61,693 nucleotides of DNA from Bacteroidales bacterium (GTDB lineage Bacteria; Bacteroidota; Bacteroidia; Bacteroidales; UBA932). Below, one piece after another: positions 15,688-45,303 of the stretch (position 1 is its first letter; every line of letters starts with the position of its first letter). The stretch spans positions 1-61,693 of the forward strand of contig JAFTDE010000050.1 of NCBI GenBank assembly GCA_017454335.1, written 5' to 3'. The notes beneath the pieces were generated by a model. That model made no database searches. It was not told the origin of the DNA and was given only the letters and a program-made list of their open reading frames with translations. The translations under genes were made by a program, and so were the position numbers.

Positions 15688-16527
15688 TTAAACGCCGCCG
15701 AAGGCGCTGTAACCGCCGTCCACAGGGATGACGACACCCGTCACGAAGGAGGAGATGTCGCTAAGCAGGTACAGCATCGTTCCGATGATGTCCTCGGGCT
15801 CGCCGAACTTGTGGGTCGGGGTGTTGGCGATAATCTTCTCGCCGCGCGGCTTGAGGGCGCCGGTCGCTTCGTCGGTGAGGAGGAAGCGGTTCTGGTTCGT
15901 CAGGAAGAATCCCGGAGCGATCGCGTTGCAACGGATACCGCACTGGGCCACGTGCACCGCATACCACTGCGTGAAGTTGTTGATGGAACCCTTGGCAGCG
16001 GAGTAGGCGGGGATCTTGGTCAGCGGGCGGATGGCGTTCATCGAGGAGATGTTCAGCACATTGCCCTTGCCGGCCTTGATCATGTCGGTCGTGAAGACCA
16101 TCGTCGGGAGGAGGGTGCCCTTGAAGTTCAGGTCATAGACGAACTGGAATCCGTCCATGCTCAGGCCGTAGAAGGTCTTGGCGGGATCATCGTCCGGTTT
16201 CATCTGCTCGACTTCGCAGGTCGCCTTCTTGGAGTTGCCTCCGGCGCAGTTGATCAGGATGTCGATCTTTCCGAGTTTCTCGTGGATCTTGTCACGGGCA
16301 GCCTCGAGCGCCTCTTTCTCCAGCACGCTGCAGGAGATGCCGATGCACTTGATGCCGAATTCCTTGGCCACGGCCTCGGCACGCTCGGGAGCGTCCGCGA
16401 CCAGGTCGATGACAGCCAGGTTGATACCAGCCTCGGCAAGGCCCTTCACCAGGGAGCTGCCGATGACGCCGAAACCGCCGGTGATGACGGCGTTGCGGCC
16501 TTTCAAATCGTCAAATGAGTATTTCAT
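15688..16527 (-). CDS. uxuB: Fructuronate reductase / D-mannonate oxidoreductase, SDR type (UxuB)
   Basis: The product is 279 aa. It is a short-chain dehydrogenase with nucleotide motif TGGFGVIGSS and catalytic Tyr/Lys in IPAYSAAKGS. Distinctive stretches (GNSKKATCE, FGVIG, NAIAPGFFLTNQNR, VIPVDGGYSAFGGV) match the Bacillus YjmF/UxuB type of D-mannonate oxidoreductase rather than KduD. It should reduce D-fructuronate to D-mannonate with NAD(P)H in the cytoplasm. Its start overlaps the uxaE stop by 4 bases. It is the last gene of the operon. Confidence 0.88.
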   Translation of the reverse strand: MKYSFDDLKGRNAVITGGFGVIGSSLVKGLAEAGINLAVIDLVADAPERAEAVAKEFGIKCIGISCSVLEKEALEAARDKIHEKLGKIDILINCAGGNSKKATCEVEQMKPDDDPAKTFYGLSMDGFQFVYDLNFKGTLLPTMVFTTDMIKAGKGNVLNISSMNAIRPLTKIPAYSAAKGSINNFTQWYAVHVAQCGIRCNAIAPGFFLTNQNRFLLTDEATGALKPRGEKIIANTPTHKFGEPEDIIGTMLYLLSDISSFVTGVVIPVDGGYSAFGGV

Positions 16528-17663
16528 TGGAACAAACGTTTAATGTGTCTTTCGCAAAGGTTTTCAGTGATCTGCTCGCCGATGACGTCGGTGTACTTCT
16601 CGAGGGCGGGCAGGAATTCGTCGCTCAGTTCGGCAGCGATCTTGTAGCTGACGTGGATGAGCTGGCGGAAGGAAGGATTGTACAGCGGTTCGGCCTGGTT
16701 GTGGCGCATGACCTTGGCATAGGTCTCGGCATCCCACTTCTCGACCTCCTCGGGGGAAGGCAGGGCCTTGACGTCCACGTCGATGACGGTGGCATAGGGA
16801 ACGGTCAGCTCTTCCATGCGGCCGAGCGAATTGACATAGATCTTCTTCGCCAGGGCCAGTCCCTCGGGAGCGGCCAGGGCCAGACCGATGTTCTCTTCCA
16901 GCCAGGTGGTGCCGGCGGTCTTGATGTGGATGCCCTTGTCATACTTGCGGATCAGCTTGCCCATGATGGGATAGATGCTGAACTTGTCGGATCCGGAGTG
17001 GATGGACAGCTTGAGGTTGTCGGGAAGTCCGTACGCCTTGACGGCCTCGTCGATGACCTGCAGATCCTGCTCGAATTCCTTCTCGAAACGGGCGAGGTCT
17101 CCGCGGTAGTCGACACCCTTGTTGAAGCGGCCCGTGAACTTGGGCGCGATGGTCTGGACGGGAATACCCTCCTTGGCGATCTCCTTCAGGATGTAGCGGA
17201 GTTCCTCGGGGGTCTGGGCCTCGTCGACCTCGTCCATCGAAACCTCGGTGACGAAGTTGTCGGCGCCCTTCTTCTCCGCGATGTGGCGGTAGATCTTGCC
17301 GGCCTCCTTGATGGCGGGCAGGAAGCGCTCCTCCATCGTGCCGGTATGGCCGATGTAGTCCGCGACGTCGATGGTGAAGAAGTCGGAGTGCTCGATGAAG
17401 CGGTCCACGTTCTTGAGGTTGATGTGGTCCGCATCGACAAAGTACTGGCCCTGGTAGTTCAGCGCCTTGACCGCGGCGTCAGCCTCCTGGCGGGTGCTGA
17501 GCGGCTCGGTGCCGATGATGTCATGCTCGCGGTTGGACTTGTTCCAGACGGGCACGAAATGCACGCCGAACAGTTTCTCGGCTTCGATGAGCGCCTTCAG
17601 CTGGTTGACACCCTCGTGGGCGAAACGGTCACCGGTTCCGAATGAATATTTTCCGATTTTCAT
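16524..17663 (-). CDS. uxaE: Tagaturonate epimerase UxaE
   Basis: The product is 379 aa. The sequence (MKIGKYSFGTGDRFAHEG..., HSGSDKFSIYP, GIHIKTAGTTWLEE) fits the UxaE family, first described in Thermotoga, which interconverts D-tagaturonate and D-fructuronate. This connects galacturonate to the glucuronate branch, in keeping with the surrounding pectin locus. Its product is the substrate of the overlapping downstream gene. No uronate isomerase (UxaC), which supplies tagaturonate, lies in the window. Confidence 0.87.
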   Translation of the reverse strand: MKIGKYSFGTGDRFAHEGVNQLKALIEAEKLFGVHFVPVWNKSNREHDIIGTEPLSTRQEADAAVKALNYQGQYFVDADHINLKNVDRFIEHSDFFTIDVADYIGHTGTMEERFLPAIKEAGKIYRHIAEKKGADNFVTEVSMDEVDEAQTPEELRYILKEIAKEGIPVQTIAPKFTGRFNKGVDYRGDLARFEKEFEQDLQVIDEAVKAYGLPDNLKLSIHSGSDKFSIYPIMGKLIRKYDKGIHIKTAGTTWLEENIGLALAAPEGLALAKKIYVNSLGRMEELTVPYATVIDVDVKALPSPEEVEKWDAETYAKVMRHNQAEPLYNPSFRQLIHVSYKIAAELSDEFLPALEKYTDVIGEQITENLCERHIKRLFQ

Positions 17664-17684
17664 GGTGTGTTATGGATTAGATGG

Positions 17685-19142
17685 TTAGGCAATATAGGTA
17701 CCGGCAACCGTGTCGCCACCGTGTCCGGTCCAGTTGGTGTGGAAGAATTCGCCGCGCGGCTTGTCCGTACGCTCGTAGGTATGGGCGCCGAAGTAGTCAC
17801 GCTGGGCCTGCAGCAGGTTGGCGGGCAGGCGCTCGCAGCGGTATCCGTCGTAGTACTCGAGGGCGGCGGCGAGGCAAGGGGCGGGAACGCCGTTCATCAC
17901 CGCGCAGGCGATGACGTTGCGCCAGCTCTGCTGGGCCTCGGCCAGCTTGCCCTGGAAGAAGGAATCCAGCAGCAGGTTCGGCAGCTCGGGGTTCTTGTCG
18001 AAGGCTTCCTTGATCTTGCCGAGGAAGACGCTGCGGATGATGCAGCCACCGCGCCACATCAGGGCGATGCCGCCGTAGGTGAGGTTCCAGCCATATTCCT
18101 TGGCCGCGGCACGCATCAGCGTGTAGCCCTGGGCGTAGGAAACGACCTTGGCGGAGAAGAGGGCCTTGCGCAGATCCTCCAGGAAAGCCTTGCGGTCACC
18201 CGTGTACTTGGCGGGCTTGGGACCGGCCAGGACCTTGCTGGCGGCGACGCGCTCTTCCTTCTGGGCGGACAGGCAGCGGGCGAAGACGGACTCGCCGATC
18301 AGGGTCAGGGGAACGCCCTGGTCCAGAGCCGAGATGGCCGTCCACTTGCCGGTACCCTTCTGGCCGGCGGTATCCAGGATGTAATCCAGCACGTACTTGC
18401 CGTCCTCATCCTTCTTCGCGAGGATGTCGCGGGTGATCTCGACCAGGTAGCTGTCCAGGTCGCCCTTGTTCCACTCGGCGAAGGTCTGGTGCATTTCCTC
18501 GTTGGTCATGCCCAGGATGTCCTTCATGATCTGGTAGCACTCGCAGATCAGCTGGATGTCACCGTACTCGATGCCGTTGTGGACCATCTTGACGAAGTGG
18601 CCGGCACCGTTCTCGCCGACCCAGTCGCAGCACGGGGAACCGTCCTCGACCTTGGCGCAGATGCTCTGGAAGATGGGCTTGACATGCGGCCAGGCAGCGG
18701 GCGATCCGCCGGGCATCATCGAAGGACCCTTGAGCGCGCCTTCCTCACCGCCGGAGACACCGGTACCGATGTACAGAAGGCCCTTGCTCTCGACATACGC
18801 CGTACGGCGTGCCGTATCCGGGAAATGGGAGTTTCCGCCGTCGATGATGATGTCACCGGGATCCAGCAGCGGGATGAGCTTGTCGATAAAGTCATCGACA
18901 GCCTGACCGGCCTTGACCATCAGGAACACCCGGCGCGGGGTCTTCAGCGAGGCGACCAGCTCCTCGAGGGAGTGGGCTCCGTAGAAGTTCTTGCCTGCAC
19001 CGCGGCCGTTGATGAATTTGTCAACCTTCTCGACAGTACGGTTGAACACGCTGACATGGAAGCCTTTGCTCTCCATGTTGAGGACCAGGTTCTCGCCCAT
19101 GACGGCAAGTCCCACGAGTCCGATATCAGAAACTGCTTGCAT
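17685..19142 (-). CDS. gnd: 6-phosphogluconate dehydrogenase, decarboxylating
   Basis: The product is 485 aa, the long form. It has an N-terminal Rossmann motif GLAVMGENL, substrate motifs IIDGGNSHFPDT and GTGVSGGEEGA, the catalytic Lys region HFVKMVHNGIEYG, and AGQKGTGKW in the all-helical domain. It converts 6-phosphogluconate to ribulose-5-phosphate, CO2 and NAD(P)H. It is normally a pentose-phosphate enzyme; here it sits between uxaE and pdxB in a uronate operon with 21- and 8-base gaps. That placement suggests 6-phosphogluconate is an intermediate of uronate breakdown in this organism. Confidence 0.95.
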   Translation of the reverse strand: MQAVSDIGLVGLAVMGENLVLNMESKGFHVSVFNRTVEKVDKFINGRGAGKNFYGAHSLEELVASLKTPRRVFLMVKAGQAVDDFIDKLIPLLDPGDIIIDGGNSHFPDTARRTAYVESKGLLYIGTGVSGGEEGALKGPSMMPGGSPAAWPHVKPIFQSICAKVEDGSPCCDWVGENGAGHFVKMVHNGIEYGDIQLICECYQIMKDILGMTNEEMHQTFAEWNKGDLDSYLVEITRDILAKKDEDGKYVLDYILDTAGQKGTGKWTAISALDQGVPLTLIGESVFARCLSAQKEERVAASKVLAGPKPAKYTGDRKAFLEDLRKALFSAKVVSYAQGYTLMRAAAKEYGWNLTYGGIALMWRGGCIIRSVFLGKIKEAFDKNPELPNLLLDSFFQGKLAEAQQSWRNVIACAVMNGVPAPCLAAALEYYDGYRCERLPANLLQAQRDYFGAHTYERTDKPRGEFFHTNWTGHGGDTVAGTYIA

Positions 19143-19150
19143 AAAAGATT

Positions 19151-20287
19151 TTATTGGTTGTTAGTAATTTTGAATCCCATTTTCGCGAGGGTTTCCGCCT
19201 GGGCGGGGGTCCCTCCTTTCAACTGCAGGGAGAAGGCCGTCGGTTCGCGCCGGACGGGGTAATCTCCGCGTAATTTCTCGAAGGAGCCGGGGTCTGCGCG
19301 CAGCGCGTCCGTATCCTTCTGGACATCATAGGTATAGAGGATCGCTTCGGTCAGCACGTCCTGCGTGCGCTTGCCCGTGGCGTCCAGGCAGAAAGACAGC
19401 CCCTGGGCCGGAGCAGGCACGCCCGAAGCGGACCAGTCCGTCAGCGGCAGGCCCAGCACGGAAGCGACGGTCCGCACGCTCATCGTCGTGCCGTTCGCCT
19501 TGCCGTCCGCGCTGTATCCGGCGATGTGCGGGGTCGCATACTCCAGCAGGCCCAGCAGTTCCCGGTCGATCTCCGGTTCGACTTCCCAGACATCCAGGAC
19601 GGCTCCCCGCAGGGAAGCGGCCTTCAGGGCGGCCTTCAGGGCCCGTTCCTCCACGACGGGGCCGCGGGAGGAATTGAAGAGGAACTGGTCCGGACGCAAC
19701 CGGGCGATGCGGGCGGCGTCGAAGAGGTGCCAGGTGGCGTCCTCCCCTTCCATCGTCAGCGGCACGTGCAGCGTCACGATGTCGGAGCGTTCCATCAGTT
19801 CGTCCAGGCTCACGAAGCCGGCACTTCCCTCCGCCCTTGCGCGCGGCGGGTCGTTCAGCAGGACCTTCATGCCCAGCAGCGAAGCGATCTCGGCGACCTT
19901 CGATCCGACGTTGCCGACGCCGACTACACCCAGGGTCATTGCAGAGAGGTCCAGGCCATGGCGGCGGGCCAGGCTGACCAGCACCGAGGCGATGTACTGC
20001 TTGACGGACCAGGAGTTGCAGCCCGGAGCATTCTTCCAGATGATGCCGTTGGCCTCGCACCAGGCGGTGTCGATGTGGTCGAAACCGATGGTGGCGGTGG
20101 CGATGACCTTCACCCGCGAGCCCTTGAGGAGCGCCTCGTTGCAGAGGGTCCGGGTGCGGGTCACGATCGCGTCCGCGTCCCGGACGACGTCGGCCGTCGT
20201 CTGCTTGCCCGGCAGATACACCACCTCCGCGAAAGGCTCGAAAGTCCCGCGGAGGAAGGGTATCTTGTCGTCACAAACGATCTTCAT
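19151..20287 (-). CDS. pdxB: 4-phosphoerythronate dehydrogenase PdxB
   Basis: The product is 378 aa, the E. coli PdxB length. It is a D-isomer 2-hydroxyacid dehydrogenase with Rossmann motif GVVGVGNVGSKVAE, catalytic Arg in NSSRGPVVEE, Glu in VWEVEPEID and His in YATPHIAGYS. The C-terminal region past residue 290 fits the PdxB dimerisation domain. PdxB acts in pyridoxal-phosphate synthesis. It lies 1 base after the LarA-like gene and 8 before gnd. Why a vitamin B6 gene sits in a sugar-acid operon is unclear; another 2-hydroxyacid substrate is possible. Confidence 0.85.
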   Translation of the reverse strand: MKIVCDDKIPFLRGTFEPFAEVVYLPGKQTTADVVRDADAIVTRTRTLCNEALLKGSRVKVIATATIGFDHIDTAWCEANGIIWKNAPGCNSWSVKQYIASVLVSLARRHGLDLSAMTLGVVGVGNVGSKVAEIASLLGMKVLLNDPPRARAEGSAGFVSLDELMERSDIVTLHVPLTMEGEDATWHLFDAARIARLRPDQFLFNSSRGPVVEERALKAALKAASLRGAVLDVWEVEPEIDRELLGLLEYATPHIAGYSADGKANGTTMSVRTVASVLGLPLTDWSASGVPAPAQGLSFCLDATGKRTQDVLTEAILYTYDVQKDTDALRADPGSFEKLRGDYPVRREPTAFSLQLKGGTPAQAETLAKMGFKITNNQ

Positions 20288-20288
20288 C

Positions 20289-21566
20289 TCAGTCCTTGAA
20301 ACGGTCCGGATAGGCCCACAGGCCCAGGGCCGGATTGCTGATGTAATAAACTTCTTCGCCGTTCACCGTGTTCCAGCCGTCCTTGAGCGATTCGACCGGA
20401 TAGCGGGCCACCATGTCGTTGTAGTGGCAGTATTCGAATCCGACGCCCTCGATCTCCTCGCGGGACACTTCGTCGCCGGGACAGTAGATGATCTTGAAAC
20501 GTCCTTCGGACGAACCGTGGATCAGGTGCGCGGATGCGCCCAGGTTGGCCTGCAGGTCCGCATTGGCGTTCGTGCATGCCAGCGTGTGCGGCGTTCCCTT
20601 GTATCCGTATTTGCGGATCAGTCCATCGATGGTCTTGTCCTCGCCGAATTCCTTCAGGCCCGGTGCCAGGACGATCAGTTCCGCATTGTCGGCCAGGGCC
20701 ATGCGCGTGCGGTACACGGCCTTGTTGCCCAGCCAGGTGCTCTTGAACTCCTCGGGATCCAGGTAGACGATGCACTTCTTGATCTCGCGCTCGACCATGA
20801 TGAAATTGGTCGCGAGCGAAAGGTCGGCCGCCTTCTGGAAGCACTCGAAGTCGTCGCCGATGAACAGGCCGCGGGTGACCATCTCGCCGCTCGCCTCGTC
20901 CTTGGCCCGGACGGTCAGGACATAGACGATGGGGACGTTCTTCAGGAAATGGACCTTGGCGTACTCGAACACGTCGCGCACCGGACTCTTGGCCCGGCCC
21001 ATGATGCGCTCCATGCCGTAGCTGGCGCCGATGAAGTGGCTCTTGTTGATGAAATCCGATCCGCCGACGCCGACGAAGATGTTCTTGGTATAGTTGGCCA
21101 TGCCGATGACCTCGTGGGGCACCACCTGGCCGATCGAAAGGATCAGGTCGAAGGAAGGATCCAACAGGAGCTTGTTGACCTGTGCATTCATTTCATAGTC
21201 AAGTTTGCCCTCGGAGACCTCCTTGACATAGGAACCGGGGACGGTGCCGACGGTCACGATGTCGTTGCGCCAGTCGTGGACGCGGATCTTGTCGGCGGGC
21301 AGGTGGCCGAACATGGCCTTGATCTGCTCGGGAGACATCGGGGAATGCGTACCAAGCGCCGGCATGACGTCCGTCAGGGTATCCCCGTAATAGTCATAGA
21401 CCATTTCAGTGATCGGACCGGCATAGGAGTTGGCCCGGGTGAAGTCAGGGGGCAACGCCAGGACCCGCTTCTTGGGGCCCATGGCGTCGAAAACCTGCTT
21501 CAGGATGGCACGGGTATCCTCGGCGGTGATGACATCCGTCTTGGAACCTCTTTCAAAATACATCAT
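20289..21566 (-). CDS. LarA-superfamily nickel-dependent 2-hydroxyacid racemase/epimerase
   Basis: The product is 425 aa, the normal LarA length. Residues equivalent to those of Lactiplantibacillus LarA are visible: Asp41 and Arg44 in PPDFTR, His74 in GTHSPM, His151 in VPHEVIG, Lys161 in YTKNIF (pincer-cofactor attachment) and His177 in NKSHFIG. The spacing His-10-Lys-16-His equals that of LarA. The family racemises or epimerises the alpha-hydroxy carbon of 2-hydroxyacids; from memory, a gluconate 2-epimerase is among characterised members. D-mannonate and D-gluconate differ only at C2, and uxaE/uxuB in the same operon make mannonate. This enzyme may therefore convert mannonate to gluconate (inference). 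No larB, larC or larE cofactor genes occur in the window. Confidence 0.85.
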   Translation of the reverse strand: MMYFERGSKTDVITAEDTRAILKQVFDAMGPKKRVLALPPDFTRANSYAGPITEMVYDYYGDTLTDVMPALGTHSPMSPEQIKAMFGHLPADKIRVHDWRNDIVTVGTVPGSYVKEVSEGKLDYEMNAQVNKLLLDPSFDLILSIGQVVPHEVIGMANYTKNIFVGVGGSDFINKSHFIGASYGMERIMGRAKSPVRDVFEYAKVHFLKNVPIVYVLTVRAKDEASGEMVTRGLFIGDDFECFQKAADLSLATNFIMVEREIKKCIVYLDPEEFKSTWLGNKAVYRTRMALADNAELIVLAPGLKEFGEDKTIDGLIRKYGYKGTPHTLACTNANADLQANLGASAHLIHGSSEGRFKIIYCPGDEVSREEIEGVGFEYCHYNDMVARYPVESLKDGWNTVNGEEVYYISNPALGLWAYPDRFKD

Positions 21567-21571
21567 GGCTG

Positions 21572-22651
21572 CTATCTCTTTACGCGTGCGTTACCAGCCC
21601 AGATGCTCCAGACCTGCTCTTCGTCGGCCGGCTGGCCATAGTCGGTGAGCATGGTGGTGGCGAGGGCGCCGGTGGCCCAGCCGAACTGGATCCACTTCTC
21701 GGGCTCCCAGCCCTTCAGGATGGAATAGAGCAGACCGCCGACGAAACCGTCGCCGCCGCCGATACGGTCCAGAACATGGATCTCGCGCGGCTCGACGACA
21801 TGCCAGTTGTCACCCTCGAGCATGATGGCGCCCCAGTTGTGGCTGTTGGTGTTGTTGACCTGACGCAGGGTCGTGGCATAGACCTGGGCGTTGGGATACT
21901 GGGCCTTGACGCGGCCGATCATCTCCTTGAAGCCGTTGATCTTCGCCGCGATGTCCTTGCCGCCGGCTTCCGGGCCTTCGATGCCCAGGCACAGCTGGAA
22001 GTCCTCCTCGTTGCCGATCAGGATGTCGGCGATCGAGCAGATCTCGGAGAAGATGTCATGGAGCTCCTGCTCGCGGCCCTTCCAGAAGGAGGCGCGGTAG
22101 TTCAGGTCGAACGCGATGCGGGTGCCGTACTTCTTGGCGGCGCGGGCAATCTCGAGGCAGAACTTGCTGGTCTCCGGGCTCAGGGCGCCGATCAGGCCGG
22201 ACAGGTGGACGATCTGGACGCCCTCCTGGCCGAAGATACGGTCCAGGTCGAAATCCTTGACGTTCAGCGTACGGCCGACTTCACCGGCACGGTCGTTCCA
22301 GACGCGGGGTCCGCGGGAACCGTAGCCGCTGTCGGCGATGTTGATCTGGTGACGATAACCCCAGGGGCCGCCCTGCGGCACTTCGGGTCCTTCGAAATCC
22401 ATTCCGCGGGCGCGGAGGTTCGCCTTGATGAAGGAAGCGAACGGGCTGCCCTGGACAAAGGTCGTCAGGACCTTGACGGGGAGACCGAGGTAGGAAGCCA
22501 CGCTGGCCACGTTGGTCTCGGCGCTGGTGGCCTGGAGGTGGAACACGTCGCTGCACTGGACAGGCTGGCCGGATTCGGGGGTGATGCGGAGTCCCATCGA
22601 AGTGGGAACGAGGAGGGCGTACTTGCAGCCCTGCTTAAGGGTAATAGCCAT
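21572..22651 (-). CDS. PfkB-family sugar-acid kinase (KDG kinase-like)
   Basis: The product is 359 aa. The sugar-binding N-terminal half is diverged. FDLNYRASFWKG (181-192) is typical of 2-keto-3-deoxygluconate kinases, and the catalytic base is Asp301 in RIGGGDGF (usual GAGD changed to GGGD). It is the first gene of a six-gene operon. By family it would make KDPG from KDG, but no enzyme forming KDG from mannonate and no KDPG aldolase is present. With the epimerase and gnd downstream, gluconate is an alternative substrate. A clear -7 box lies 26 bases upstream. Confidence 0.85.
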   Translation of the reverse strand: MAITLKQGCKYALLVPTSMGLRITPESGQPVQCSDVFHLQATSAETNVASVASYLGLPVKVLTTFVQGSPFASFIKANLRARGMDFEGPEVPQGGPWGYRHQINIADSGYGSRGPRVWNDRAGEVGRTLNVKDFDLDRIFGQEGVQIVHLSGLIGALSPETSKFCLEIARAAKKYGTRIAFDLNYRASFWKGREQELHDIFSEICSIADILIGNEEDFQLCLGIEGPEAGGKDIAAKINGFKEMIGRVKAQYPNAQVYATTLRQVNNTNSHNWGAIMLEGDNWHVVEPREIHVLDRIGGGDGFVGGLLYSILKGWEPEKWIQFGWATGALATTMLTDYGQPADEEQVWSIWAGNARVKR

Positions 22652-22711: not shown

Positions 22712-23983
22712 CTAGCGCTGCGGCTGGGGCTGCGAACGGTCGTCGATCTTGTTGTTCTCGTAGACGATGTCGCTGAGCTCGAATTCATCCGGCTTCTCCA
22801 CGATATCGAAGGGCTTGCGGGTGCAGATGACGTCGCAGTTGCGCATCAGGATGTGCCGTCCGTAGGACTTGGGGATGTCCTCGCGGCCCTTCAGGTCGAA
22901 GAACTGGGTCCAGGGATGGATGTAGATGAAGTTGCCCACCGTACCGGTGATGCCTTCCACCAGGATGTACTCGTAGTTCTGCGGGGTGTCGGGGCGCATC
23001 TTCAGCCACAGTACGCGGGAGGCGCCGGCGCCTTCGCAGTTGCGCAGGATCAGGTTGTGTCCGCCGACGCACTCGCTGCCGAAGGTCACCATGGCGGAAC
23101 CGGGGCCGAACCAGCAGTTCTCCACCAGGATGTTGGAGTTGGTGGCGTTGTCCGGATCGGTGTCAGCCCAGGGGCCCTTGCCGCCCTTGATGGCGATCAG
23201 GTCGTCGCTGTTCTGGAAACGGCAGCCGGTGATGTGGAAGTTGTTGCAGCCGTCCACGTCCACGCCGTCGGAGGATGCCGCCGCGACCGGACGCTGCGGC
23301 GCGTAGATGGTGATGTCCTTCACGCGGACATAGTCGCATTTGTAGAAGTGCGTCGTCCAGAAGCCCGGATTGCGCAGGGTCACGCCTTCCAGCAGGACGT
23401 TCTTGCTGTTCGCCGCATAGAAGAGGCGCGGGCGCAGGGCCTCCAGGTTCGTGCAGGCGGGGTTGACCCGGCGGCGGGTCCAGAAGTCACGCCAGTAGCG
23501 CAGGCCGTTGCCGTCCACGACGCCCTCGCCGCGCAGGGAGAAACCGTCCACGTCGTAGGCGTTGATGAGCGCGGCGATGTAGCGCTGGATCACACCCTCG
23601 ATGTGCACCGGCATGACGGCGTAGTCGGAGACGTCGTCACTGCCCTTCAGCACAGCCCCTTTCTCCAGGTACAGGTGGGTCTTGGACTTGAAGAAGAGCG
23701 AACTCGTCAGGAAGGTTCCCTCGGGGATGACGATGGTTCCGCCGCCCTGTTCGGCCGCCAGGTCGATGACCTTCTGGATGGCTTCGGTCTGCAGGACGGT
23801 GCTGTCACGCAGCACGCCGTAATCCGTAATCACGTAACGCTTGGCCTGCTGGCCGCTCAGTTTGGCGGGCTTGGAGGTGAACCATTTTTCCATTTTGGTT
23901 CCGTCCGGCCAGAAGTTGTCGGCAGCGGACAGGGAGCTGCCGGCGAGGAGCAGCACGCAGAGAAGGGAGAAGAATCTTTTCAT
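22712..23983 (-). CDS. GH28 polygalacturonase-type glycoside hydrolase
   Basis: The product is 423 aa. The start at 23983 gives a signal peptide (cleavage near SLSA-AD); a 17-aa upstream extension crosses the promoter and was rejected. It has a right-handed beta-helix with the GH28 acidic cluster: Asp239 in ASSDGVDVDG and Asp260/Asp261 in QNSDDLIAIKGG, then FGSECVGG and LWLKMR. It hydrolyses galacturonic acid linkages in pectin; GSE in place of GHG resembles exo-acting bacterial members. It is divergent from another GH28 gene with back-to-back promoters. Confidence 0.88.
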   Translation of the reverse strand: MKRFFSLLCVLLLAGSSLSAADNFWPDGTKMEKWFTSKPAKLSGQQAKRYVITDYGVLRDSTVLQTEAIQKVIDLAAEQGGGTIVIPEGTFLTSSLFFKSKTHLYLEKGAVLKGSDDVSDYAVMPVHIEGVIQRYIAALINAYDVDGFSLRGEGVVDGNGLRYWRDFWTRRRVNPACTNLEALRPRLFYAANSKNVLLEGVTLRNPGFWTTHFYKCDYVRVKDITIYAPQRPVAAASSDGVDVDGCNNFHITGCRFQNSDDLIAIKGGKGPWADTDPDNATNSNILVENCWFGPGSAMVTFGSECVGGHNLILRNCEGAGASRVLWLKMRPDTPQNYEYILVEGITGTVGNFIYIHPWTQFFDLKGREDIPKSYGRHILMRNCDVICTRKPFDIVEKPDEFELSDIVYENNKIDDRSQPQPQR

Positions 23984-24021
23984 GACTTGGTATCGTTTAA
24001 TCGTTATAATCGATGCATTAC

Positions 24022-24029
24022 CAAAGATA
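24022..24029 (-). promoter_or_regulatory. -7 box for the minus-strand GH28 gene
   Basis: TATCTTTG on the minus strand, 38 bases before the start at 23983. Confidence 0.65.
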
Positions 24030-24041
24030 CACATTTTTTAG

Positions 24042-24049
24042 TATTTTTG
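24042..24049 (+). promoter_or_regulatory. -7 box for the plus-strand GH28 operon
   Basis: TATTTTTG on the plus strand, 21 bases before the ATG at 24071. It is only 12 bases from the opposing minus-strand box, so the two polymerases would compete or share a regulator. Confidence 0.6.
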
Positions 24050-24070
24050 TTACAGTAACACGAACAGACC

Positions 24071-25483
24071 ATGACAATTCTATCCATTCTCTTCCTGTCC
24101 GCCTTCCTGGCGGCCGGAAGCCTCCCCACAGCGGCCCAGACTGTCGTCACTGCACCCGAATCCCCCTTCGGATTCGAACCCCTCAGCATGTACGTTTTCC
24201 CGCAGCGTGATTTCCCCATCACCAAGTACGGAGCCAAACCGGGGAACGTCCAGGCCAACACCAAGGCCTTCGAAAAGGCGATGGCCGCCTGCAACAAAGC
24301 CGGGGGCGGCCGTGTCGTTGTCCCCGCGGGCGTGTGGATCACCGGCGCCGTGCATTTCCGGAGCAACTGCCAGCTGTGGCTCTCGGAAGGGGCGGAACTG
24401 GTCTTCGAGGACGATCCCCAGCTGTACCTGCCGGCCGTCCACACCTCCTGGGAGGGCACGGAATGCATGAACTACTCTCCCCTGATCTACGCCTACGAAT
24501 GTGAGAACGTGGGCATCGGCGGCACGGGCCTGATCCATCCCAAGATGGACTTCTGGACGACCTGGTTCGCCCGTCCCGAATCGCACATCCAGGCCACGCG
24601 CCAGCTGTACGCGATGTGCTCGACCGGCATCCCCGTCGAACACCGGCACATGGAGGAGGGCGAGGCGAACATGCGCCCGCACCTGATCCAGTTCAACCGC
24701 TGCACCAATGTCCAGCTCGCTGATTTCCGCATCCAGGACAGCCCCTTCTGGACCATTCACCTGTACCTGTGCAAGGAAGCCTGGGTACACGGCTTGAACG
24801 TCTATGCGCACGGGCACAACAACGACGGCATCGATATCGAAATGACCCAGCACATCCTGGTGGAGGACTGTGTCTTCGACCAGGGCGACGACGCGGTGGT
24901 GCTGAAATCCGGCCGCAACCAGGACGCCTGGCGGCTGGACACCCCCACGCAGGACGTGGTCGTACGGAACTGCACCGTCGTCCAGGGCCACTGCCTGATG
25001 GGCATCGGCAGCGAGATGGCCGGCGGCGTACGTCGCGTGTACATGCATGACTGCAAGTCTTCCGATGCCGTGTACCGCATGCTGTACCTCAAGACCAACC
25101 ACCGCCGCGGCGGGGTCCTGGAGGACATCTGGATGGAGAACGTGAGCGCTGACAAGGCCAACCGCGTCATCGAGATCGACACCGACGTGCTGTACCAGTG
25201 GCGGGACATCGTGCCGACCTTCGAGACCCGGATCACCCACATCCACAACATCGGCATCCGGAACGCGACCTGCCGCCAGGCGGAGGCCGTGTATGAGTTC
25301 AACGGCGACGAGCGCGATCCGATCGACGGCGTGACGATCGAGAACGTCCATGTGGGTACGCTGACCAAATTCATCAACAACGTCAAGAACACCCGGAACA
25401 TCATCGTGAAGAACGTCAGTTGGGACAAGTTCGGAGCTGACGGCGAAGGCATGCAAATCGGCGGATTCGCCCCGGGAAGATAA
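24071..25483 (+). CDS. GH28 polygalacturonase-type glycoside hydrolase
   Basis: The product is 470 aa with a signal peptide ending near PTAAQ. The beta-helix carries Asp252 in HNNDGIDIE, Asp273/Asp274 in FDQGDDAVVLKSG and GIGSEMAGGV, all GH28 features. The extended N-terminus and SEMAGG motif fit exo-polygalacturonase or rhamnogalacturonan-type members found in Bacteroidetes pectin loci. It starts a three-gene operon with the two GH43-type genes (gaps 3 and 12). Confidence 0.88.
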   Translation: MTILSILFLSAFLAAGSLPTAAQTVVTAPESPFGFEPLSMYVFPQRDFPITKYGAKPGNVQANTKAFEKAMAACNKAGGGRVVVPAGVWITGAVHFRSNCQLWLSEGAELVFEDDPQLYLPAVHTSWEGTECMNYSPLIYAYECENVGIGGTGLIHPKMDFWTTWFARPESHIQATRQLYAMCSTGIPVEHRHMEEGEANMRPHLIQFNRCTNVQLADFRIQDSPFWTIHLYLCKEAWVHGLNVYAHGHNNDGIDIEMTQHILVEDCVFDQGDDAVVLKSGRNQDAWRLDTPTQDVVVRNCTVVQGHCLMGIGSEMAGGVRRVYMHDCKSSDAVYRMLYLKTNHRRGGVLEDIWMENVSADKANRVIEIDTDVLYQWRDIVPTFETRITHIHNIGIRNATCRQAEAVYEFNGDERDPIDGVTIENVHVGTLTKFINNVKNTRNIIVKNVSWDKFGADGEGMQIGGFAPGR

Positions 25484-25486
25484 TCC

Positions 25487-26512
25487 ATGGCCATGAAACA
25501 TCTCCTCCTCTTCACAGCCGGCCTCTTGCTAACGGCCGGACTCGCCCTCACAGGCTGCGCGGGCGGCCGGGGCGTGGAAGCCCCCAAGCCCCTCTACACC
25601 GATCCCGTCCACGGTGCGCCGACCGATCCGGAACTGATCCAGGACCGCAGGACCGGCAAGTGGTACATGTTCTACACCAGCCGCCGGGCCGACCTGCAGG
25701 GCGGCCGCGGCGTCGAATGGGTGCACGGCTGTCCCATCGGCATCGCCGTGTCCGACGACCTGGCCCACTGGACCTACCTGCAGGATGCCGAGATCGGATA
25801 TGCGCCCGACCCGGATCCGACCTACTGGGCCCCTGCACTCGTCGATGACGGGAAGACCTACCACATGTTCCTGACCTATGTCCCGGGCATCTTCCAGGAC
25901 TGGAACCATCCCCGCCACATCGTCCACCTGACCTCCGACGACCTGATCCACTGGGAATTCCGGAAAGTGCTGGACCTGATCACCGAAAAGGTGATCGACG
26001 CCGACGTGGCGCGCCTGCCCGACGGGACCTGGCGGATGTGGTACAACGACGAACCCAGCGGCAAGCGCATCGCCTGGGCCGACAGCCCCGACCTCTACAA
26101 CTGGGAGGACCACGGCCTGCTGCCCGACATCCAGGCCTGCGAGGGCCCCAAGGTCTTCTTCTGGAAGGGCAGCTGGTGGATGGTCTGCGACGCCTGGCAG
26201 GGTTTCACGGCCTTCCGCAGCGACGATGCCGTCAACTGGGTCCAGCAGGAACACAACCTGCTGCAGGAACCGGGCACCGGTCCCTACGACGACGTGAAGG
26301 GCAACCACTGCGATGTCGTGGTACGCGGCGACCACGCCTACATCTACTATTTCTGCCATCTTTCCCGGCCCCGGCCGGAACCCGGCCAGCGTCCCGGACC
26401 GCGGGCGGACGGGCTGTCCCCCAACTGCACCTTCATCCAGGTGGCGGAACTGCAGTGCGAGGACGGCAGGACCCTGACCTGTGACCGCAATGCACCTACC
26501 ATCATCCGATAA
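25487..26512 (+). CDS. GH43-like five-bladed propeller glycoside hydrolase, lipoprotein
   Basis: The product is 341 aa with a lipoprotein signal (LALTGC, Cys24). Propeller repeats such as GKWYMFYTSR, KTYHMFLTYV and TWRMWYNDE are visible. Candidate acidic triad: Asp47 (GAPTDPEL), Asp171 or Asp173 (IDADVARL) and Glu219 (ACEGPKVF). GH43-clan enzymes remove arabinose, xylose or galactose from side chains; which sugar cannot be read here. An alternative start lies 6 bases downstream. It sits mid-operon. Confidence 0.75.
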   Translation: MAMKHLLLFTAGLLLTAGLALTGCAGGRGVEAPKPLYTDPVHGAPTDPELIQDRRTGKWYMFYTSRRADLQGGRGVEWVHGCPIGIAVSDDLAHWTYLQDAEIGYAPDPDPTYWAPALVDDGKTYHMFLTYVPGIFQDWNHPRHIVHLTSDDLIHWEFRKVLDLITEKVIDADVARLPDGTWRMWYNDEPSGKRIAWADSPDLYNWEDHGLLPDIQACEGPKVFFWKGSWWMVCDAWQGFTAFRSDDAVNWVQQEHNLLQEPGTGPYDDVKGNHCDVVVRGDHAYIYYFCHLSRPRPEPGQRPGPRADGLSPNCTFIQVAELQCEDGRTLTCDRNAPTIIR

Positions 26513-26524
26513 TACACGTCTGCT

Positions 26525-27466
26525 ATGAAAAGAATCACTCCCCTGCTGGCCCTGCTGGCCCTGACGGGCTGCGGTCAGAGTTGGACCAACCCCATCATCA
26601 CCGACATCTACACGGCGGATCCCTCCGCGCGCGTGTTCGGCAACACCCTGTACATCTATCCCAGCCACGACAAGGACAACGCCTTCACCTTCAACATGGA
26701 GGACTACTATGTCTTCAGCACGCGGGACATGAAGACCTTCACGAACTGCGGACTGGCCTTCGACGCCATCCGGCAGACCGAATGGGCGCACGCCCAGGCC
26801 TGGGCGCCGGACTGCATCGAGCGGAACGGCAAATACTACCTGTACTACCCCGCCGACCGCCGCCACATCGGCGTCGCCGTCAGTGACAGCCCGACCGGAC
26901 CCTTCCACGACGCCCTCGGCCATCCGCTGCTGAGCATCGACTCTCCGGGCGTCGTATGCAACCGTGACTTCATCGATCCCTGCGTTTTCATCGACGACGA
27001 CGGCCAGGCCTACCTGTACGTGGGCCAGAACACCGTCTGCTGCATCAAACTCAACGAAGACATGATCTCCTACGAGGGCGAGGCCTTCGTCATCGAAGGC
27101 TGCGACGAATTCTTCGAGGCCATCTGGATGCACAAACGCAAGGGCAAATACTACCTGTCCTATTCGAACGGGACCTGGAACGGGGAACAGCCCCAGATCG
27201 CCTATGCGATGTCCGACAGCCCCACGGGGCCCTTCGAATACAAGGGCATCATCCTGGATCCGGTCAGCAGCGGGACGAACCACCACAGCATCGTCAAGTT
27301 CAAGGGCAAGTGGTACATCTTCTACCACAACGCCGACCTGAGCACCAGCCGCACCCCGGAAGCCGGACGCTTCAACACCGTGCGCCGCAGCGTCTGTGTC
27401 GACCGCCTGTACTACAATCCGGACGGCACCATCAAAAAGGTCGTCATGACCTCCGGATTGCAGTAA
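26525..27466 (+). CDS. GH43-family glycoside hydrolase, lipoprotein
   Basis: The product is 313 aa with a lipoprotein signal ending LALTGC. Classic GH43 triad: Asp32 in YTADPSARVF (base), Asp151 in DFIDPCVFID (pKa modulator) and Glu198 in FFEAIWMHKR (acid). NHHSIVKFKGKWYIFYHNA is a typical family segment. It is probably an arabinofuranosidase or galactosidase for pectin side chains, held at the outer membrane. It is the last gene of its operon and ends in a strong terminator. Confidence 0.88.
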   Translation: MKRITPLLALLALTGCGQSWTNPIITDIYTADPSARVFGNTLYIYPSHDKDNAFTFNMEDYYVFSTRDMKTFTNCGLAFDAIRQTEWAHAQAWAPDCIERNGKYYLYYPADRRHIGVAVSDSPTGPFHDALGHPLLSIDSPGVVCNRDFIDPCVFIDDDGQAYLYVGQNTVCCIKLNEDMISYEGEAFVIEGCDEFFEAIWMHKRKGKYYLSYSNGTWNGEQPQIAYAMSDSPTGPFEYKGIILDPVSSGTNHHSIVKFKGKWYIFYHNADLSTSRTPEAGRFNTVRRSVCVDRLYYNPDGTIKKVVMTSGLQ

Positions 27467-27467
27467 C

Positions 27468-27502
27468 AAAAAACCGGTTGGAGATCATCCAACCGGTTTT
27501 TT
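27468..27502. terminator. Bidirectional intrinsic terminator
   Basis: A 15-bp perfect stem (27468-27482 with 27488-27502), 5-base loop, with A-tract and T-tract on both sides. It lies between the convergent GH43 and GH28 genes and should serve both. Confidence 0.9.
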
Positions 27503-27520
27503 CTTGTATGTGCGCGATGA

Positions 27521-28948
27521 TTACTGCGCCGAAGCGAAGGTGTCGTTGATCACTTCGCCGTTGATGGTGCAGTTCTCGAAGGTCACGTCCTTGTAGGCGC
27601 CGCGCAGGCTGTTGCCCGCCGCCACACCGTCGAAGGTGCTGTTCTTGACCAGGATGTTGCAGACATTCTCGGGATCGTCCAGGCCGTCGATGACCAGGGC
27701 GTTGCGGGCCTTCTCGCAGGTCACGTTCTCGATGAGGATGTTGCGGACGGTCGGGATGAAACCGCGCTCGGCCACCTCGTTCGGTTCATAGCGCAGGTTC
27801 ACGCTGGCGATCGCGCCGCCGCAGGTACCGACCTCGACATCCTTGAAGAAGATGTTCTCGATGACGCCGCCACGGGCCGTGGAGGTCTTGATACGAAGCA
27901 CCACATTCAGGTGCGGGGAATCCATCTTGCAGTTGTACACGTACAGGTTGCGGTAACCGCCGGAAATCTCGGAACCGATGGTCACGCCGCCGTGGCCGTT
28001 GGCCATGTTGCAGTTGCGCACGACGATGTTCTCGCTCGGACGGGCCCAGCGGCGGCCGTCCACGTTGCGTCCGCTCTTGATGGCGATGCAGTCGTCACCG
28101 GTGTTGAAGGTGCAGCCCTCGATCAGCACGTTCTTGCAGGACTCGGGGTCGCAGCCGTCCCCGTTGGGGCCGTCGTTGTCCACGGTGACGTCACGGATGG
28201 TGAGGTCCTCGCAGAGCAGCGGGTGCAGCACCCAGAACGGCGAACGCAGCAGGGTGACGCCCTCGATCAGCACGGTCTTGCAGAGGGTGAAGTTCACGGT
28301 CTGCGGACGGAGGGTGTTCTCGGTCGTGGTGATGCGTTCATAGACGGGCATCGAAGCCTCGCCCCATTTGAGCAGTTCGAGACGCGAAGGCTTGATGAAT
28401 TCGGCCGTCTCGTCGTCGTTCAGGTAGTGGCCGCGGCGCTCGTTGTACTGCTGGAGGGCCCACCAGTTGTCGCGGGCCGCCTGGCCGTCGATCGTACCCT
28501 TGCCGGTCAGGGCGATGTTCGTCTCGCCGTAGGCGTAGATCAGCGGATGGGCGTTGTTCACGTCAACACCCTCCCAGCGCGTACGGACAGCCGGGAAATA
28601 CAGGTCCACGTCGGTGAGGAACTTCAGCGTGGCGTTGTCCTCGAGGTGCAGGTTGACGTTGCTCTTCAGCGTGATGGGGCCGGTGTAGAAGACGCCGTCG
28701 GGAACGACGACGGTACCGCCGCCCTGGAGGCTGACGGTCACGATGGCCAGGTTGATGGCTTCGTGGCAGGGCTGGTTGGGATCATCGGGCACGGCACCGA
28801 AATCCGTAATGGACACGGTACGGTCCGGGAAACTGACCTTGGTCATCTCCCTGACGATCTTGTCAGCCTGCTTCCACGGGTCGGAAGGATTGGACGAGCA
28901 GGCCACCAGGACCAGCGCCGCCGCAATGAAATACAATACTTTCTTCAT
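27521..28948 (-). CDS. GH28 polygalacturonase-type glycoside hydrolase, lipoprotein
   Basis: The product is 475 aa with a lipoprotein signal ending LVLVAC. The beta-helix has PNGDGCDPES (Asp264), FNTGDDCIAIKSGRN (Asp285/Asp286) and TIGSEISGG. It is the third GH28 of the locus and distinct in sequence from the other two, suggesting different chain-length or linkage specificity. It is the last gene of a minus-strand operon CE8, CE8, PL10-CE8, GH28. Confidence 0.9.
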   Translation of the reverse strand: MKKVLYFIAAALVLVACSSNPSDPWKQADKIVREMTKVSFPDRTVSITDFGAVPDDPNQPCHEAINLAIVTVSLQGGGTVVVPDGVFYTGPITLKSNVNLHLEDNATLKFLTDVDLYFPAVRTRWEGVDVNNAHPLIYAYGETNIALTGKGTIDGQAARDNWWALQQYNERRGHYLNDDETAEFIKPSRLELLKWGEASMPVYERITTTENTLRPQTVNFTLCKTVLIEGVTLLRSPFWVLHPLLCEDLTIRDVTVDNDGPNGDGCDPESCKNVLIEGCTFNTGDDCIAIKSGRNVDGRRWARPSENIVVRNCNMANGHGGVTIGSEISGGYRNLYVYNCKMDSPHLNVVLRIKTSTARGGVIENIFFKDVEVGTCGGAIASVNLRYEPNEVAERGFIPTVRNILIENVTCEKARNALVIDGLDDPENVCNILVKNSTFDGVAAGNSLRGAYKDVTFENCTINGEVINDTFASAQ

Positions 28949-28963
28949 AATGTTGATGGTTTG

Positions 28964-31081
28964 TTAGTACTCGAGAATGGGCCAGAGGTCCCGCAGCGTC
29001 TGCTCGGGATTCCACTTATTGTCAAAAGTCCAGAGGGCCGTGCACTCCCAATGCTCGAGGACATGCCCCTGCTCGGTGCGGATGAACTGGTCGGCCGCAT
29101 CGATGGGCGACTTGTCCAGGCTGTTAGCGAGCCAGCCGGAATGGCCTCCCTCGCGGACATTGTTGTAGTAATAGAAGCGCTCGCCCCAGACACACGGATC
29201 CTTGACCTGGTCAGAATAGGCGTAATGGATGTTCTGGTCCAGGATGTTGGCGCTCATGCGACTGTGCAGGATGTAGATGCGCGCATCGTGGTGATAACGG
29301 CCCAGCAGGGTCGGCGACGCGGCGTCGAAGTTGGAGTTCGTGATGACGAACTTCTTGTCCTTGCTGCCGCGGCCGTCATGCCAGATCATGGCACGACCGT
29401 CGCCGTAGAAGTTGCAGCGCGTCATGTAGCACCAGCCGCGCGGGCAGACGAAATCGACGCCGGGCGTGATGACGTCCAGGTCGGCGTGGTAGTACATGCC
29501 GTCACCGGACGGGGCCCAGAGCGACAGGGCGTCGTTGCCGGTGGACTTGATGGTGGAGTTGATGAGGATGGTGCGGTCGGCGCGGCCCATCACCACCATG
29601 CGGTGCTGGATGGACTGCGGCTGCTTGGGATCGACCGGCGAGGCGTCGAAACCGTTGATCAGCGTGAATCCGCTCATGATCAGGTCATGGGCCTCGGCGG
29701 CGATGTTCACGACATTGCCTCCGGCCCGGCGGCCCTCGACGACGGGAGCCGTCTCTTCGGAAAGTTCGATGACCGTGTTCTCCCGGTCTTCACCGACCAG
29801 GATGATGCAGGGCTTGTTGATGTTCAGCGCCTCGTGGTAAGTGCCGCTCAGCACCAGGATCTTGAAGTATCCGGCCGGCGAGGTGGGAGCCTTGTCGATG
29901 GCGGCCTGGATGCTCTCCCCCGGTTTCACGACCACGTCGAAGTCCTTCGGATTCATCTTGTGCTCGCGGAACAGGGTGAAGATTCCGTTCTCGTTGCCGC
30001 CCTTGCCCTTGAGGTCGATCTTGACCTTGTACTTGGGATCGTTCTCCCTGACCCAGGCCAGGTAGGGCTCGTACAGCTGGGCCGGGTTGGAATTGAACCA
30101 GCTGTATCCGTTGCGGCGTTCGCGGCCGATCTCCTCCAGCCGGCGGCGCGGCAGGCCGTCGCGGTCGCAGACGAAGGGCTCGGTGTACTGCAGGTCATAG
30201 AAACGCGCCCACAGCGGAGCGGCGTCGGGATCGGGCACCAGACGGGTCGTACGCTCGCCGTCCAGCATGCCGCGTTCCAGCCGGTAGCCGGTGATCTTGT
30301 AGGTATCGAACCATTTCATGGCTCCGTGGACGGCCGCCTTGATCCGCTTGTCCGGATTCTTGATGTTCATCAGGAACTGGACCATGCGGGCGCTCTCCAT
30401 CGAGCAGTAGGAAGGCAGCTCGAAGGCCCGGCCCGTGATGGGCGCCAGGGTGACGGGATCCACCTGCTGGCACCAGACGGTGGGCTGTTTCTTCACGACG
30501 ATCTGGGCGTTGAGGATGCAGTCGAGGCCCCGCTGGTACGAATCGCGCAGGCGGACCTTCATCGCCTCATCCACCAGGTCCCCGCCGTACGGGGCGTTAC
30601 CCTCGAAGATGTTCTGGAACATCGTCAGGATGTTCGTCATGTTGTTGTCGTTGAAGGTGATGTTCACCTGGTACTCGATCGGGTCCGGCCAGAACTGGGG
30701 CCAGCCGCCGTTCGCATACTGGCCGCCCAGCAGGAACTCGAGGCCCCTGACGAAACCTTCGCGATACTTCGGATCCTTCGTCGCCTGGTAGGTATGCGCC
30801 AGGGTGGTCATCTGCGAGGTCGTCGCATTGTTGTCCACGGTCGAATCGTCCGTGCGCTGCTTTTCACGCTGGACCTGGGCGATCTGCTGCGGGGTCAGCG
30901 CAGCGGACATGTTGGTGTTCTTGGGCCAGCCGCCGGTCACGCGCTGGTACAGCAGGATCTGGTCGGCGACACGGATTCCCTCGGGAGATCCGTAATCGGG
31001 AGCCTGGAAGGCACCGCGAGGCTGGGCCCCCAGACAGAGGCCCAGCAACGCGGCAGAAATGGTTAGGATGATTTTTTTCAT
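28964..31081 (-). CDS. Bifunctional PL10 pectate lyase - CE8 pectin methylesterase
   Basis: The product is 705 aa with a signal peptide ending near LCLGAQ. Residues about 40-345 form a PL10 pectate lyase (TGGWPKNTNM, NGGWPQFWPD, TFNDNNMTN, WCQQVDP, AFELPSYCS). Residues about 380-700 form a CE8 beta-helix (VVVKPGESIQAAID, GYFKILVLSGTYHE, LSLWAPSGDGMYY). The esterase removes methyl groups so that the lyase can cut the homogalacturonan it exposes. Both catalytic modules look intact. Gaps to its neighbours are 15 and 19 bases. Confidence 0.9.
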   Translation of the reverse strand: MKKIILTISAALLGLCLGAQPRGAFQAPDYGSPEGIRVADQILLYQRVTGGWPKNTNMSAALTPQQIAQVQREKQRTDDSTVDNNATTSQMTTLAHTYQATKDPKYREGFVRGLEFLLGGQYANGGWPQFWPDPIEYQVNITFNDNNMTNILTMFQNIFEGNAPYGGDLVDEAMKVRLRDSYQRGLDCILNAQIVVKKQPTVWCQQVDPVTLAPITGRAFELPSYCSMESARMVQFLMNIKNPDKRIKAAVHGAMKWFDTYKITGYRLERGMLDGERTTRLVPDPDAAPLWARFYDLQYTEPFVCDRDGLPRRRLEEIGRERRNGYSWFNSNPAQLYEPYLAWVRENDPKYKVKIDLKGKGGNENGIFTLFREHKMNPKDFDVVVKPGESIQAAIDKAPTSPAGYFKILVLSGTYHEALNINKPCIILVGEDRENTVIELSEETAPVVEGRRAGGNVVNIAAEAHDLIMSGFTLINGFDASPVDPKQPQSIQHRMVVMGRADRTILINSTIKSTGNDALSLWAPSGDGMYYHADLDVITPGVDFVCPRGWCYMTRCNFYGDGRAMIWHDGRGSKDKKFVITNSNFDAASPTLLGRYHHDARIYILHSRMSANILDQNIHYAYSDQVKDPCVWGERFYYYNNVREGGHSGWLANSLDKSPIDAADQFIRTEQGHVLEHWECTALWTFDNKWNPEQTLRDLWPILEY

Positions 31082-31100
31082 TGGATATGGTTGGTATGGA

Positions 31101-32594: not shown

Positions 32595-32646
32595 GGTAAA
32601 ACAATTGCGGTTAAAATAGTTTAGGCACAAAGTCAGTCAAATTTAA

Positions 32647-32654
32647 CAAAAATA
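32647..32654 (-). promoter_or_regulatory. -7 box upstream of the CE8 gene
   Basis: TATTTTTG on the minus strand lies in the 71-base gap between the two CE8 genes, predicting a leader of about 46 nt. Confidence 0.5.
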
Positions 32655-32665
32655 AAGCACTTTTC

Positions 32666-34210: not shown

Positions 34211-34255
34211 GAAGGTCAATGAGATTGGTTGGTGTAAAGTTACACAATTCCGCGT

Positions 34256-34291
34256 AAAAAGAAAAGGGGGCGCGATTTGCATCGCGCCCCC
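34256..34291 (-). terminator. Terminator after the first susD
   Basis: An 11-bp perfect GC-rich stem (34266-34276 with 34281-34291), loop TTGC, is followed on the minus strand by TTTTCTTTTT. It separates the SusC/SusD unit from the CE8 operon. Confidence 0.9.
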
Positions 34292-36481: not shown

Positions 36482-36495
36482 ATCGAATGCCATTT

Positions 36496-39675: not shown

Positions 39676-39741
39676 GAATTAGGTTGAGTGTTATTGGGTT
39701 AAACTGGATTATTCCTCGCCTAAAAACAGGCCAATACACCC

Positions 39742-39749
39742 CAAAGTTA
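39742..39749 (-). promoter_or_regulatory. -7 box of susC copy 1
   Basis: TAACTTTG on the minus strand predicts a 60-nt leader. It overlaps a phased AAAGTT repeat. Confidence 0.55.
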
Positions 39750-39768
39750 AGAAAAGTTTTTTAAAGTT
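39743..39768. repeat. Three AAAGTT hexamers with a 10-base period
   Basis: AAAGTT occurs at 39743, 39753 and 39763, all on the same helical face, overlapping and just upstream of the susC copy 1 promoter box. It may be a regulator site or phased A-tract curvature. Confidence 0.5.
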
Positions 39769-39781
39769 GTACCCGGGGCAT

Positions 39782-39816
39782 AAAAAAAATGGAGCCGATG
39801 TTGCGGCTCCATTTTT
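39782..39816 (-). terminator. Terminator after susD copy 2
   Basis: A 12-bp stem (39785-39796 with 39805-39816) is followed on the minus strand by eight Ts. It closes the copy 2 SusC/SusD operon just before the copy 1 promoter. Confidence 0.9.
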
Positions 39817-39836
39817 AAAAAGATTTACGAATCGGA

Positions 39837-42002: not shown

Positions 42003-42017
42003 ATCGATTGCCATGGT

Positions 42018-45197: not shown

Positions 45198-45278
45198 TGG
45201 GTTAAGATAAAGTTAAAGTTTAAGGTTAATAATAAGGTGTTATCAAAGTCGTTTTTCATAGCCGCGAGAGCCACTTTA

Positions 45279-45286
45279 CAAAAATA
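45279..45286 (-). promoter_or_regulatory. -7 box of susC copy 2
   Basis: TATTTTTG on the minus strand predicts an AT-rich leader of about 75 nt. The tandem repeat operator ends 17 bases upstream, overlapping the -33 position. Confidence 0.65.
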
Positions 45287-45303
45287 CAAAACGGCCCAGA
45301 TCG

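Follow-up and report, generated by a model that had tools for sequence, protein, structure and literature searches.

A six-gene set beside a pectin locus in a Bacteroidales genome probably carries galacturonate to the pentose phosphate pathway through a predicted nickel-dependent epimerase

The stretch of DNA analysed here (the window, 61,693 nucleotides) is contig JAFTDE010000050.1, positions 1-61,693, of the Bacteroidales genome GCA_017454335.1, which is 78.8% complete. Six open reading frames (ORFs) lie on its minus strand at 15688-22651 and encode, in the order of transcription, a kinase, a LarA homolog, PdxB, Gnd, UxaE and UxuB. We think it likely (probability about 0.8) that these genes form an operon of pectin and galacturonate catabolism, through which a gut-type member of the Bacteroidales brings the main sugar acid of pectin to the pentose phosphate pathway by means of a nickel epimerase. 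In the proposed route, UxaC, which is encoded in the same genome away from the six-gene set, would convert galacturonate to tagaturonate, UxaE would convert tagaturonate to fructuronate, and UxuB would form D-mannonate from the latter. The LarA homolog, with its nickel-pincer nucleotide (NPN) cofactor, would then epimerise D-mannonate at C2 to D-gluconate, the kinase would phosphorylate D-gluconate to 6-phosphogluconate, and Gnd would convert this to ribulose-5-phosphate and CO2. As in the analogous route of Lactobacillus suebicus discussed below, Gnd would recover the reducing equivalent spent by UxuB.

Families were assigned with profile models from NCBIfam and Pfam, whose scores were compared with the curated cut-offs (Table 1). 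All ORFs and families were confirmed, in agreement with an initial annotation that had read six tightly packed genes with these identities from the sequence. The gaps between them are, in transcription order, 5, 1, 8 and 21 bases, followed by a 4-base overlap between UxaE and UxuB, and the six genes would share one transcript. The match of UxaE with PF16257 spans only positions 233-474 of the 475 of the model, and no NCBIfam model matches this protein. Gnd is the sole match for a 6-phosphogluconate dehydrogenase in the genome. UxaE, a fructuronate reductase, the epimerase, a kinase and Gnd, the joint encoding of which marks a pathway of the Thermotoga type, are all found together in the set.

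Table 1. Features of the window, with the profile-model matches on which they rest (score versus cut-off)
Feature	Position	Strand	Basis
Sugar-acid kinase of the PfkB family and first gene of the set, putative D-gluconate 6-kinase	21572..22651	-	PF00294, 78.8 versus 25.8 bits
Group-18 LarA homolog, putative D-mannonate/D-gluconate 2-epimerase, predicted to depend on the nickel-pincer cofactor	20289..21566	-	NF052594, 643.2 versus 500 bits; match to 4nar
PdxB, 4-phosphoerythronate dehydrogenase, accessory, putative role	19151..20287	-	NF001309, 442.6 versus 434 bits
Gnd, NADP-dependent 6-phosphogluconate dehydrogenase (decarboxylating)	17685..19142	-	TIGR00873, 770.8 versus 426.7 bits
UxaE, tagaturonate/fructuronate epimerase, short form (379 residues)	16524..17663	-	PF16257, 168 versus 27.1 bits
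UxuB, short-chain dehydrogenase type, fructuronate reductase (D-mannonate oxidoreductase)	15688..16527	-	NF006132, 354.8 versus 281 bits
Pectin-degradation genes: three GH28, one GH43, one pectic acid lyase, two pectinesterases	22712..34282	mixed	Pfam; ORF 25487-26512 without match
Two SusC/SusD pairs and a further pectic acid lyase	34322..49810	-	Pfam; ORF 45346-47730 without match

The LarA homolog is recognised by the model of group 18, named 'nickel-dependent putative hexonate epimerase', and it matches by sequence the structure 4nar (E = 7e-31), which is that of GntE2 (PMC7583248). The residues usual in GntE proteins at the positions of F175, F176, W358 and T359 of LarA are E, V, A and H (PMC11770544, section 6), and the window protein has E152, V153, A346 and H347. 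In an alignment with 80 relatives, E152 and V153 were present in all 81 sequences, A346 in 79 (one serine and one gap) and H347 in 80 (one gap), the positions being mapped through the sequence alignment with 4nar and their place after the catalytic histidine, not by structure. D41, R44, H74, H151, K161 and H177 were invariant in the 81 sequences. All of these except D41 are the equivalents of the NPN residues R75, H108, H174, K184 and H200 of LarA and were kept in the nine sequences from the family sample described below, as judged by the 4nar alignment and motif spacing, not by structure. The signature and the NPN residues are thus shared with GntE1, GntE2 and LarAH15; these three are D-gluconate 2-epimerases, whereas group 18 has been hypothesised to epimerise a hexonate (PMC7583248, PMC11770544). 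Judging from the residues, the substrate of the window enzyme would be mannonate or gluconate.

The same signature bears on the order of the two steps that link mannonate to 6-phosphogluconate. In the galacturonate-phosphoketolase pathway of L. suebicus (PMC6978723), UxaC, UxaE and UxuB lead to mannonate, 6-phosphogluconate and Gnd follow, and the sum is redox-neutral down to ribulose-5-phosphate, as in the route proposed here. The difference is that mannonate is phosphorylated first, the genes of the two linking steps being not known there. If the order reported from L. suebicus cell extracts applied, mannonate would be the substrate of the PfkB protein and 6-phosphomannonate that of the LarA homolog, which would epimerise it to 6-phosphogluconate. 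We consider this unlikely and prefer epimerisation before phosphorylation, because the LarA homolog has the four residues typical of those GntEs for which mannonate without a phosphate group was the substrate assayed.

In a sample of 99 genomes of the family (25 genera), the group-18 epimerase was found in nine genomes from five genera, and in none of the six further genomes that represent the window's genus in the sample. The linkage exceeds chance, since the kinase and gnd adjoin the epimerase in all nine carriers; PdxB lies between the epimerase and gnd in four of them. In GTDB at least 572 loci matched the LarA homolog. We took the 80 best and counted neighbours that were encoded on the strand of the epimerase gene and no more than 6 kb away from it in the 43 well-flanked loci, those with more than 3.5 kb before and more than 4.5 kb after the epimerase gene. 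These contained gnd in 37 cases, UxuB in 34, the kinase in 33 (always with gnd), PdxB in 27 and UxaE in 12.

Further evidence came from the relation of gnd to zwf. gnd occurred in 17 of the 99 family genomes: all nine epimerase carriers, all seven genomes with zwf above cut-off, and G025 (an eighth zwf match, in G084, was below cut-off). None of the carriers had zwf, so that no family genome had both it and the epimerase, and G025 was the only gnd genome with neither zwf nor the cluster. Ten genomes had gnd without zwf, and nine of these carry the epimerase. Among the 92 zwf-less genomes, gnd was present in 9 of 9 with the epimerase versus 1 of 83 without it (p = 1.2e-11, kinship not corrected for). 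This pattern suggests that Gnd is probably fed by gluconate from the cluster and not by glucose-6-phosphate.

The main argument that the initial annotation had raised against the route was the likeness of the kinase to 2-keto-3-deoxygluconate (KDG) kinases. The nearest solved relative by sequence is 2afb, a KDG kinase (E = 5e-31), and the nearest NCBIfam model is a fusion of 2-keto-3-deoxy-6-phosphogluconate (KDPG) aldolase and sugar kinase, although the match is below cut-off. The kinase also stays below the cut-offs of the KdgK equivalog models (NF052444, 32.6 versus 400 bits; NF041332, 101.5 versus 440), which says little, since the KdgK-like protein of Natronoflexus pectinivorans (locus L079) itself misses its cut-offs (511 versus 700 and 214 versus 440). 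That locus carries, in one run, uxaC, the KdgK-like kinase, a KDPG aldolase (above its own cut-off), uxuB, a close relative of the window kinase, the epimerase and gnd.

In the 80 GTDB loci, 59 relatives of more than 250 residues were 70-98% identical to the window kinase, and 13 other PfkB proteins 23-34%. All 60 close kinases, including that of the window, have Ser-Ala at positions 43-44 and Asn at 104 and 119, whereas the 13 distant proteins have Gly-Gly (12 of 13), Tyr at 104 (11 of 13) and Tyr at 119 (12 of 13). R113, R121, R186 and D301 are common to all the proteins compared, close and distant. We take it that tyrosines and arginines such as these contact KDG in known KDG kinases. On this comparison the window kinase is a subfamily of its own, apart from the KdgK-like paralogs, and this, together with the paralog and KDPG aldolase found alongside it in L079, weakens the argument from likeness. 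The natural reading for the window enzyme is a gluconate or mannonate kinase, and probably a new subfamily of gluconate kinases. That the enzyme is a KDG kinase of the classic branch, with gnd and the LarA homolog serving something else, for instance an aldarate, seems to us very improbable in view of the changed residues in 60 of 60 close kinases, the presence in L079 of a separate KdgK-like paralog adjoining a KDPG aldolase, the way in which gnd tracks the epimerase, and the results for uxuA, for which the best match in the present genome (78.8% complete) scored 19.1 bits, below the cut-off of 23.7, and which was not found in the carriers G033 (96% complete), G051 (99%) and G091 (92%).

Several observations weigh against a route from mannonate through gluconate. 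No assayed member of group 18 is reported in the available parts of PMC7583248 and PMC11770544, where the hexonate substrate is a hypothesis. The kinase, besides having 2afb as its nearest solved relative, is above cut-off with its Pfam model and with no NCBIfam model. The close kinase is absent nearby in 10 of the 43 well-flanked loci, and gnd in 6 (L017, L041, L048, L055, L064 and L076); in L055, a locus from Verrucomicrobia, the epimerase has one of the distant PfkB proteins (33% identity) as its neighbour. The gene set had been expected to go with the absence of uxuA, and this expectation failed: uxuA is present in 5 of the 9 family carriers versus 29 of 90 non-carriers (p = 0.27), so that the idea that it is missing wherever the set occurs had to be rejected, and in Maribellus (L047) it lies inside the cluster. 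To these points must be added the cofactor genes, which seem to be missing from many carriers as described further on.

The route itself is known in outline. A flow from mannonate through gluconate to pentose phosphate was proposed for Thermotoga maritima by Rodionova et al. in 2012 (PMC6978723; described also in PMC3750489 and PMC7583248), and D-gluconate 2-epimerase activity was demonstrated in vitro in 2020 for GntE1 and GntE2, the T. maritima epimerase being assayed (PMC7583248). gntE homologs had also been noted in Lactobacillus, Acidobacterium and Terriglobus (PMC6978723). The remark of the initial annotation that it was aware of no such pathway thus needs correction, while the route that it put forward gains support from the families, the GntE residues, the occurrence of gnd without zwf and the larB, larC and larE genes of the genome itself. 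The operon of T. maritima, aldH-pelB-gnd-uxaRED-gntEK (PMC3750489), resembles the present one in combining Gnd, UxaE, UxaD, a kinase and a gluconate 2-epimerase of the LarA family beside pectin degradation, and in that mannonate is likewise proposed to enter the pentose phosphate pathway. Its epimerase is of group 20 and its kinase is gntK, whereas the window has a group-18 epimerase and a PfkB kinase, with PdxB added. T. maritima also matched zwf and uxuA in control searches, whereas the present genome, at 78.8% completeness, matched neither above cut-off. The GntK of T. maritima is presumably of the FGGY type.

We found no description of the route in Bacteroidota in the literature searched. 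Table S1 of PMC7583248, on the gene neighbourhoods of the LarA groups, could already place group 18 next to these genes. The window would hold a variant with a group-18 epimerase and a PfkB kinase subfamily; what is new is that gnd without zwf tracks the epimerase, that the kinases form a separate subfamily, and that larB, larC and larE are apparently missing in many carriers. The findings would connect a route described from a hyperthermophile with Bacteroidota that feed on pectin in gut, rumen and sediment, and in Gnd they offer a clear example, open to experiment, of a 6-phosphogluconate dehydrogenase outside the oxidative pentose phosphate pathway.

The initial annotation had proposed to look for the cofactor genes in the genome, and larB, larC and larE are indeed present in a row, all above cut-off, followed by a CbiM-like transporter below its cut-offs (L091:6146-8971, contig C1). 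Their LarC is 39-44% identical to that of four other family genomes; the gene order is larE-larB-larC in three of these, and the stretch from the fourth showed LarC only. The guanine-plus-cytosine content of this contig is 64%, versus 60% for the window, and its tetranucleotide correlation is 0.957, versus 0.945-0.986 for 16-kb parts of the window, which fits an origin of both from one genome and proves nothing.

A different picture was obtained for the other carriers. We searched 59 genome entries with the epimerase, nine from the family and 50 from the 80 GTDB loci (58 distinct genomes, G080 and G114 having identical coordinates). LarC was above cut-off in 20 of them, LarB in the same 20, and LarE in 19 of these (it was below cut-off in G135). 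In the remaining 39 (38 of the 58 distinct genomes), none of the three was above cut-off. Incompleteness is insufficient to explain this, because of the 39 entries 35 contain PdxJ and 36 UxaC, every one has at least one of the two, and completeness reaches 100, 99, 96, 96 and 92% in some; two of the 39 are apparently isolates, Maribellus sp. YY47 and Draconibacterium aestuarii. A second LarA homolog above the Lar_N cut-off was present in six of the 59 entries (G117, G118, G129, G137, G138 and G145). On a protein tree of 51 sequences, the presence or absence of larBCE needs eight changes, six of them forced by well-supported branches. All six sequences on the tree that come from Planctomycetota, Acidobacteriota, Verrucomicrobiota and Calditrichota belong to genomes with larBCE, and an enzyme 93% identical to that of the window (L011) sits in a larBCE-less genome.

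About 15% of genomes with larBCE are without larA (PMC11796402); we found no report of larA without larBCE in the literature searched. Grouping of neighbouring ORFs in the 80 loci, examined for a cofactor-uptake gene beside the epimerase, gave no family both common and confined to larBCE-less genomes. A few small families were skewed towards such genomes (four loci, three without larBCE, none with it, one of unassigned status). What fits best is repeated loss of larBCE, perhaps with regain in the present genome, plus the use of foreign NPN; the larBCE-less genomes may also have an unknown NPN synthesis or another cofactor. Because larBCE was not found above cut-off in 38 of the 58 genomes while the NPN residues are invariant, with at least six changes of status and the case of L011, we tentatively suggest, at somewhat less than even odds, that many users of the epimerase are NPN auxotrophs that take the cofactor or a precursor from their neighbours, or make it by an unrecognised pathway. 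If true, uptake of NPN would be the first salvage route for this organometallic cofactor, and if the absence of larBCE is real, it would mean a trade in the cofactor or an unknown synthesis of it. The missing cofactor makers are to us a more interesting open point than the route itself.

Two further observations were made in the LarC searches. In the Marinilabiliaceae loci L057, L059, L072 and L079 (G126, G127, G135 and G139), the LarC match is a short protein (frame of 268-284 residues, in two pieces) and LarB scores lower. The family genomes G050, G060, G078, G081 and G093 have a LarC match without a match to the group-18 model (G093 partial, with stops).

PdxB oxidises 4-phosphoerythronate. 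This compound inhibits GndA in Bacillus subtilis, and gluconate becomes toxic when it is not cleared (PMC6449344). The placement of PdxB before gnd could therefore be protective: PdxB could remove 4-phosphoerythronate and so protect Gnd, or it could be a passenger of vitamin B6 synthesis. The idea that it has a role outside B6 synthesis because the B6 pathway is absent was unsupported, PdxJ being present in 53 of the 59 genome entries, in which no search for a second copy of PdxB was made. A GFO/IDH/MocA-type oxidoreductase lies between the epimerase and PdxB at L044:11358-12404, and likewise in L047, L056 and L061; its family occurs in 18 of the 80 loci. To judge by a single ORF (L044:4987-5973), the neighbour family seen most often (34 of 80 loci) probably encodes a regulator, one domain of which resembles periplasmic binding proteins. 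In a locus from Planctomycetota, a HAD-type hydrolase (L085:9089-9994) lies between UxuB and the epimerase, and the close PfkB kinase was not seen. A protein of the phosphofructokinase family (PF00365) directly precedes the epimerase at L042:4908-6212, on a 9-kb contig where neither gnd nor the PfkB kinase was seen.

The six-gene set adjoins a pectin locus at 22712-49810, with two pectic acid lyases and two SusC/SusD pairs in total, and galacturonate is therefore the likely feed of the operon. An FGGY kinase at 59753-61174 was considered as a gluconate kinase and rejected, its best match being rhamnulokinase (481.3 bits, below the cut-off of 527.95). By eye, the C-terminal part of the frame at 10490-12220 resembles another sugar kinase of the PfkB family.

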